Source of the DNA: Vampirovibrio chlorellavorus
GTDB taxonomy: Bacteria; Cyanobacteriota; Vampirovibrionia; Vampirovibrionales; Vampirovibrionaceae
Assembly: GCA_903866275.1 (NCBI GenBank)
Contig: CAIPMU010000016.1
Coordinates: forward strand, 62,001-126,000
Direction: 5' to 3'
Length of the DNA: 64,000 nucleotides
In this document: positions 58,979 to 60,587 of the stretch, in pieces
How positions within the stretch are numbered: the first letter of the stretch is position 1
How the letters are laid out: the number at the start of each line of letters is the position of its first letter
Notes under the pieces: model-generated
The model's database searches: none
Seen by the model: only the letters and a program-made list of their open reading frames with translations
Told to the model about the DNA's origin: nothing
Program-made: the position numbers and the translations under genes

Positions 58979-59632
58979 CTAAAAGCTAAACCAATCAGGG
59001 TCATCTGCTGTATTGTTTGTTCCAAAACAGCTATATGTTCTGGATCCGATGCGCCCTTCATAGGTTAGAGTTAATATTAATGAGTTTGGTACACCAGAAT
59101 AATAACCATCTGGATCCAGTACATAATTGACCAATCCGTTAGGCGGACAAGTTGCCGACTGTGCAGAAAAAGAGCTATTGATGGGAGCTAGAACAGCTCC
59201 ATTATGCAGTTTGATGCAATTCGCACAAGTAAATGAGGTAAGAACATGATTGGGGCGGTAATCTAGCACCGTAGCGAATGGAACAGGTGCCACATAATTC
59301 ATATACTGGGTTAAGTCTTGAGGTAGTGTGTTCGGACTAAGCGTGCCATTCAGTTTGGCAGCTTGATAAGCGTTGCTGATAGTAGCCATAGCCTCTTTGG
59401 CAATAGCGTTATAGTTTGAATTTCGTTGATTTTGAACAATTTTCGGGATGATAAACGTTGCAATCACGCCCAAAATGGCCAAACTGATCAACAACTCGGC
59501 CAGCGTGAAGCCTGCCAAGGCCCTTTTATGACAAGCCGATGGCAGCCAGCCCAAATCCCGGCGGGCTTTCTCCATCAGCCACGGACTGGGCTTCAGACAG
59601 AGTGAGGCGCAACAAGCCAGCCAAAGTCTCAT
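58979..59632 (-). CDS. Type IV prepilin-like protein with long leader
   Basis: Up to 217 residues. The prepilin peptidase site is ALAG|FTLAELLISLAILGVIATFIIPKI, a class III leader with F+1 and E5 and the hydrophobic helix that packs in the pilus core. The globular part has several cysteines (FTCANCIKLH) and ends DDPDWFSF. The leader predicted from ATG 59632 is 42 residues and rich in Trp and Cys, so it looks like frame-shifted or read-through sequence; ATG about 59575 (MEKARRD, 22-residue leader) is an alternative start. Immediately upstream is a C-tract that may switch its frame. Probably a minor pilin or major pilin of a type IV pilus or competence system. Confidence 0.82.
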   Translation of the reverse strand: MRLWLACCASLCLKPSPWLMEKARRDLGWLPSACHKRALAGFTLAELLISLAILGVIATFIIPKIVQNQRNSNYNAIAKEAMATISNAYQAAKLNGTLSPNTLPQDLTQYMNYVAPVPFATVLDYRPNHVLTSFTCANCIKLHNGAVLAPINSSFSAQSATCPPNGLVNYVLDPDGYYSGVPNSLILTLTYEGRIGSRTYSCFGTNNTADDPDWFSF

Positions 59633-59681
59633 ATCGATTGATGCGCCGGGGTTTGACGATTTCGGGGGGGGGGGGGTACAT
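59526..59681 (-). CDS. Possible 51-residue leader ORF containing the C-tract
   Basis: With the 13 Cs in this sequence, ATG at 59681 opens MYPPPPEIVKPRRINRYETL and continues to TAA at 59526-59528. The start has AGGAG seven bases upstream, a better ribosome binding site than any near the prepilin frame. Composition (no Trp or Cys) looks more like protein than the overlapping prepilin leader does. It ends 12 bases before the prepilin KRALAG codons. With 12 or 15 Cs the same start would run into the prepilin frame. Shorter than the track limit. Confidence 0.45.
   Translation of the reverse strand: MYPPPPEIVKPRRINRYETLAGLLRLTLSEAQSVADGESPPGFGLAAIGLS
59664..59676. repeat. Homopolymer of 13 G (C on coding strand)
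   Basis: An uninterrupted 13-base G tract, the longest homopolymer I noticed in this window. It sits three to four bases inside a start codon that has a strong Shine-Dalgarno (minus strand), the usual architecture of slipped-strand phase-variable genes. Confidence 0.85.
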
Positions 59682-59774
59682 TAAACCGCTCCTGTGGTCA
59701 ATGGGCTACCTGTCTGTTATCGGATAGATTTCGGAAAACTTGAGGATTTAGATTCAACTCGCCTGACAACTGGC

Positions 59775-60320
59775 TTACCAGCTAAACCAGGAGGGATCGG
59801 CAGCAGGAAGAGGCCCGTAAGAGCAACAGCTACTGGTGGTACCGACTTTAACCTGACCACGGGTGGTTATAAATCCATTGAAATAAAGATCAAATTGTAC
59901 TCCCGATGGAGGGGGAGAACTACGAGCATTGGGAATAAAGTGAAACTCAATAGCGTTTAAATTGCTTGTGCCTGCGAAGTTATAGTTACTAAACCAAAGC
60001 AATCCACCATTATGTAGCCATATACAAGGTGAAGAGTTGTTACATGTTAGGGTATTAATTACAAGGCCAGATGTATCATACGTAAGATAATTTATATAGG
60101 GGCGTAAAGCCGCTGGCGTAGTCGATGAGGTAATGATGCCGTCATTTTGGGCTTTTTGATAGGCTGAGGTGATCATGGCAGCAATTTCGTGGGCTTGGGC
60201 GTTATATGAAGAGGTCTGCTGGCTGCCAATGAGCTTAACAATGGTGAATGTGGCAATCACACCCAGAATGGCCATACCAATCAACAATTCTGCCAGGGTA
60301 AAGCCTTTGGAGCGACGCAT
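59775..60320 (-). CDS. Type IV prepilin-like protein
   Basis: 181 residues. Short basic leader MRRSKG|FTLAELLIGMAILGVIATFTIVKL with a canonical G-1/F+1/E5 prepilin peptidase site and a hydrophobic helix. The remaining domain is Ser/Asn/Thr-rich with cysteine pairs (LTCNNSSPC, SSCCSYG) and ends DPSWFSW. It shares the Q..Y.A.A.E..A.I..AYQ.A..NG helix and ending with the 58979 prepilin, so the two are paralogues. It would be assembled into a type IV pilus or pseudopilus. The C-terminal bases are duplicated at 58864-58887. Confidence 0.87.
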   Translation of the reverse strand: MRRSKGFTLAELLIGMAILGVIATFTIVKLIGSQQTSSYNAQAHEIAAMITSAYQKAQNDGIITSSTTPAALRPYINYLTYDTSGLVINTLTCNNSSPCIWLHNGGLLWFSNYNFAGTSNLNAIEFHFIPNARSSPPPSGVQFDLYFNGFITTRGQVKVGTTSSCCSYGPLPAADPSWFSW

Positions 60321-60587
60321 ACGTTTTCTCTACCTCGATGTTACTGCACACAACGAATCCATCTCAATCCGCTAGCGTGAATCATAAGAATATTATAGGG
60401 GACTTTTGATTCAAGCATTGATCCCAGCGCTATTATCGATCAGTTGTTTAAATACTTTTGAAGAGGGGTAAAACTGTAATATTTCTTAACTACAGTGATT
60501 TCACATCGAAACCTGCACTTCATGAACCTTACAGAACACCTATCTTGCGATGCCAGCACAAGATAGAAGCGAGCCGACAAACAGAAA

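Follow-up and report, generated by a model that had tools for sequence, protein, structure and literature searches.

A prepilin gene in the window is probably subject to slipped-strand phase variation as one member of a multigene prepilin family, and this copy, with 13 C after its start codon, reads as OFF in the genome as sequenced. The window is a 64,000-nucleotide stretch of a contig from a relative of the algae-killing Vampirovibrio. Phase variation is the best explanation of the sequence pattern among those weighed below. The first-pass annotation had proposed a phase-variable prepilin from this locus alone, and the case is now much stronger than that reader could know, since the tract is common to paralogues, varies in length, falls in all three phases and recurs in a second Vampirovibrio species.

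The proposed mechanism is as follows. The ribosome binding site and the comparison of copies suggest that translation starts at the ATG just 5' of the C-tract, and slipped-strand mispairing during replication would alter the number of C residues (n). At the window, n = 0 mod 3 would give a prepilin with a leader of about 60 residues that the type IV prepilin peptidase could cut off ahead of FTLAELL, and with any other n translation would end after a short peptide. If the approximately dozen copies vary independently, each cell would have its own small combination of pilins. That the slippage occurs in replication, is reversible and is used in predation is what we infer from these features.

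Structure of the window locus

The elements of the locus are as follows.

58979..59632, minus strand: prepilin reading frame, whose listed start is an internal ATG lacking a Shine-Dalgarno (SD) sequence; the PF07963 motif G^FTLAELL begins at 59512
59513..59662, minus strand: conserved 50-codon leader in the prepilin frame (KSSNPGASIDMRLWLACC...CHKRALA)
59526..59681, minus strand: 51-residue out-of-frame product of the C13 (OFF) state, from the list of open reading frames, frame 0 from the ATG
59664..59676, minus strand: C13 tract, the proposed slippage site; ON if n = 0 mod 3, OFF at n = 13
59681-59679, minus strand: ATG start of the switchable frame; paralogues, including in-frame copies with a broken tract, use the same start
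59693-59689, minus strand: AGGAG ribosome binding site, read from the sequence; AAGGAGCGGTTTA-ATG is kept in paralogues
59716..59743, minus strand: sigma28 (FliA)-like promoter TCAAGTTT-N11-TCCGATAA(C), with 0 mismatches to the pattern shared by prepilin promoters
59775..60320, minus strand: neighbouring prepilin paralogue (open reading frame and PF07963) without a tract, not switchable by tract slippage

On the minus strand a 7-nt spacer, CGGTTTA, separates AGGAG from the ATG, which is followed by TA, by the C13 tract at 59676-59664 and by GAAATC. The earlier description of AGGAG, seven bases, ATG TAC and C13 is right in every detail checked. The prepilin reading frame (59632-58979) is offset from ATG 59681 by 49 bases, or 1 mod 3, and the loss of one C or the gain of two brings the tract start into frame with the prepilin, so that gain and loss of single homopolymer units changes the frame. 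Computation of the frames agrees with the first-pass statement that 13 C encode a 51-residue peptide while 12 or 15 C lead into the prepilin; 12 or 15 C (also 9 or 18) fuse ATG 59681 to ..KSSNPGASIDMRLWLACC..RALAG^FTLAELL. By its frame, the C13 copy in the window is OFF as sequenced.

The window gene product matches PF07963 with 25.3 bits (cut-off 21.2), and has the methylation motif after the glycine followed by a hydrophobic helix. Its structure model consists of a long N-terminal helix and then strands (pLDDT 71). The best PDB match of this model in a fold search is a type IV pilus, with a weak E value of 0.5. One prepilin peptidase (PF01478) is found per genome, both here (C16:250907 in genome G000) and in V. 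chlorellavorus. The two pilins of the window have in common a C-terminal DPxWFSW-like ending (58979-59040 and 59775-59800) and a KLHNG...DPDG core. No known family was found for their mature part.

The pattern shared by prepilin promoters has three matches in the window against 0.24 expected. A second sigma28-like element, at 60432-60459, would serve the neighbouring paralogue. Compared with TAAAGTTT-N11-GCCGATAA, which we take to be the sigma28 (FliA) consensus, the element of the window gene scores 14 out of 16. Elements scoring at least 12 out of 16 lie upstream of 25 of the 42 prepilins in the genome, with one on the reverse strand and two in shuffled sequences. A sigma-70 promoter scan stayed at chance level. 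The family is seemingly transcribed from sigma28-type promoters. Two papers on Bdellovibrio (PMC3627812, PMC5430801) describe a FliA-type sequence that marks attack-phase promoters, and control of pilin genes by FliA. By analogy, promoters of this type would place the Vampirovibrio pilin set in the motile, prey-seeking stage.

C-tracts across the prepilin family

The genome of the window (2,997,741 bases in 20 contigs) contains only four C or G runs of 13 or more, where a first-order Markov estimate expects 0.4. Each of the four is found on the 5' side of a prepilin gene. Three directly follow the start codon, and the fourth, a C18 run at C20:126906, lies outside the reading frame, 5' of a prepilin's sigma28-like promoter, and could act on transcription. 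The string ATG-NNN-C8 occurs seven times and its reversed control not once. Of the 53 runs of at least 8, ten have one of the 42 PF07963 places no more than 230 nt downstream on the same strand (0.085 expected, Poisson P ~5e-18, with the 230-nt limit picked after the family was seen). In the window gene, too, the homopolymer at the 5' end of the coding sequence goes beyond chance. Most other C8-9 runs, which have no prepilin, look like background. A point against phase variation is that MutL is present in the genome, so a general repair defect does not explain tract instability. In a different genome of the comparison (G025), a repeated CTTCCTGACCTC..TAGCCGAG-ATGTG-C-run sequence has no link to prepilins.

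At least 11 prepilin genes, including the window gene, have a long C-run of variable length right after the start codon. One module recurs in the window gene and the paralogues closest to it: AAGGAGCGGTTTA-ATG-TA-Cn-GAAATC with a leader of about 50 codons, in which n is 13 (window), 8, 8, 7, 10, 12 and 10. Tract prepilins with other leaders have C13, C13, C12 and C10, the last in the gene at C7:49157. The window copy and the copy at C16:181006 agree in 51 consecutive bases 3' of the tract and in 149 of 165 bases overall, but have C13 and C8. Tract length, taken from assemblies with one genome per species, therefore varies (C7-C13 among these paralogues) while the flanks are conserved, both between copies and between species.

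Three of the tract starts in this genome are ON and eight are OFF, five in one phase and three in the other. All three copies with interrupted or short tracts (C7:89746, C20:50630 with a TTG start, and C11:282669) are in frame from the same start. A broken run thus goes with a preserved frame, and a long run with a frame that looks random, in small numbers of copies. Three copies with C7-C8 may be nearly stable. Two further tract starts lie at contig ends, at C3:158 (C10) and at the end of C9. Contig C9 stops inside a C-tract after ATGTATCTTA and contig C12 starts within a leader of the same type, which suggests that the assembly may break at a tract.

Tracts in other Vampirovibrio and in gut relatives

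The genome of the window belongs to a species other than V. chlorellavorus NCIMB 11383 (G004, LAPX01), in the same GTDB genus. In NCIMB 11383, runs of 26, 14, 13, 11, 10 and 9 C stand directly before prepilins; one of these six prepilins has the orthologous long leader, and the offsets are distributed about 2, 2 and 2 over the phases. It counts weakly against phase variation that the NCIMB 11383 assembly was described as free of microheterogeneity, indels included (PMC4451040). Three more genomes of the genus (G001-G003) gave no match to the tract-plus-prepilin patterns apart from a single weak case in G003. Across the class, 32 of the 382 genomes have C8 with GFTLAE close behind it, while none has the reversed control.

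The strongest alternative to phase variation is programmed slippage. RNA polymerase or the ribosome would slip on the C-run, and prepilin would be made at any genomic length, which makes the run an expression device and no genetic switch. Transcriptional slippage with a function is known from A/T runs of nine (PMC1088944), and two genomes (G060 and G083) assigned to Gastranaerophilaceae, a presumptive family name, also speak for it. These contain 77 and 176 runs of at least 9 against 97 and at least 146 PF07963 places, approximately one run per prepilin. We sampled 400 kb of stretches around long runs, chosen regardless of frame or orientation. Here 51 of 61 runs precede a prepilin in open frame, 50 of the 51 are exactly ten bases long, and in 49 of 50 scored copies the prepilin has the same -1 offset relative to the SD-supported ATG. 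The codon phase is not fixed; among the copies with this offset, 22, 25 and 2 have a tract that begins at codon position 1, 2 and 3, respectively. An SD-supported start in the prepilin frame is lacking in 50 of the 51 tract prepilins of the sample, while its tract-less prepilins are in frame in 4 of 4 cases. In a wider set of 107 C-run starts the offsets are 79, 17 and 10.

A fixed ten-base run with a constant -1 offset is predicted by programmed slippage and not by free phase variation, and the Gastranaerophilaceae design looks, from these sequences, like programmed slippage of a whole prepilin gene family. If true, tens to more than 100 prepilin genes per genome would have a run of exactly ten and all stand one base out of frame, and no such prepilin could be made unless the transcript slipped by +1 (or the ribosome by -1). 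The runs in these genomes are C or G in the gene, with one strand polarity per 20-kb stretch whatever the gene direction; in G060, which has a clear GC skew, the G-run is mostly on the skew-positive strand, while the skew of G083 is weak.

Slippage of the Gastranaerophilaceae kind could still operate in the window gene. However, programmed slippage predicts a conserved run length and offset, and Vampirovibrio tracts range from C7 to C26 with offsets in all frames; the copies with broken tracts, in addition, are all in frame. For the window gene we consider programmed slippage unlikely, and slipped-strand phase variation the better account. Tentatively, C/G-runs in prepilin leaders may be an ancestral Vampirovibrionia device that works in two ways: Vampirovibrio would vary phase freely, and programmed slippage would be obligatory in the gut Gastranaerophilaceae. 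To this idea we give rather less than even weight.

Translation of the leader and start site

The leader is, on sequence comparison, translated in the prepilin frame under purifying selection. In ten copies the prepilin frame gives a dN/dS of 0.20, against 1.15 and 2.31 for the other two. The prepilin frame has no stop in any of the ten, while the other two are stopped in 9 and 6 copies. Codons 12-50 of the leader hold the excess of third-position changes, and codons 1-11 by themselves are uninformative.

A start downstream of the tract could in principle make the prepilin, leaving tract and 51-residue reading frame irrelevant. An in-frame ATG at 59632 is present, as is a TTG just 5' of the motif, near 59518. 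ATG 59632 has no SD sequence and is ATA in 3 of 10 copies, and so it is not the start of the family. Purifying selection acts on the leader upstream of the TTG, and tract-broken copies keep the frame of the upstream start. On these three grounds (the ATG without SD, the selected leader and the preserved frame) we reject a downstream start, which we regard as very improbable.

Even less probable is that the tract lengths are errors of sequencing or assembly and the genes are all in frame. Homopolymers are error-prone and one contig ends in a tract, but in NCIMB 11383 Illumina data gave assembled runs up to C26, and error cannot itself account for a long run recurring at no fewer than 11 prepilin starts. 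On these two points we reject assembly error as a full explanation. The least credible alternative, offered in the first-pass annotation, is that the 51-residue frame is a genuine small gene that overlaps the prepilin; the SD sequence and start do belong to it, but we rejected it on the lack of purifying selection in its frame, the stops that interrupt it in most paralogues and the absence of any Pfam match in a profile search.

Comparison with known systems and implications

Phase variation of the Vampirovibrio prepilins, as proposed here, would resemble several known systems in part. As in Neisseria opa, near-identical surface-protein genes have a 5' coding repeat that sets the frame, and cells express combinations; the opa repeats are CTTCT pentamers (PMC5953494) and the products outer membrane adhesins, whereas in Vampirovibrio the repeat is a mononucleotide C-run and the products are prepilins. 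Neisseria pilC1/pilC2 (homopolymer G/C of 9-20, PMC5953494) also link homopolymer phase variation to type IV pili, but PilC is a pilus-associated protein and not a prepilin, and variation of pilE itself comes chiefly from recombination with pilS. In Bifidobacterium breve, replication slippage at an intragenic G-tract controls a pilus, and only some lengths fuse two open reading frames (PMC9187656); those pili are sortase-dependent, Gram-positive and encoded at two loci. Bdellovibrio, another predator, has pilin genes under the flagellar sigma factor with a CCGATA-type -10 box, and the excerpts of its FliA pilin papers (PMC5430801, PMC3627812) describe no tract-based switch.

The literature searched contains no paper on poly-C prepilins and no report of phase variation in Vampirovibrio, which does not prove absence; one flagellin paper merely names the genus. 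As far as this search found, a trick known from animal pathogens is apparently unreported in the Vampirovibrio lineage. If the proposal is true, a mononucleotide phasome acts directly on a large prepilin family in a predatory, non-photosynthetic relative of Cyanobacteria. Set beside the gut genomes, whose runs are frozen at ten bases, Vampirovibrio would then present a contrast between replication slippage and programmed slippage within one bacterial class. The proposal also predicts that cultures of this algal-pond predator would be mixtures of pilin types, which bears on its attachment to prey.
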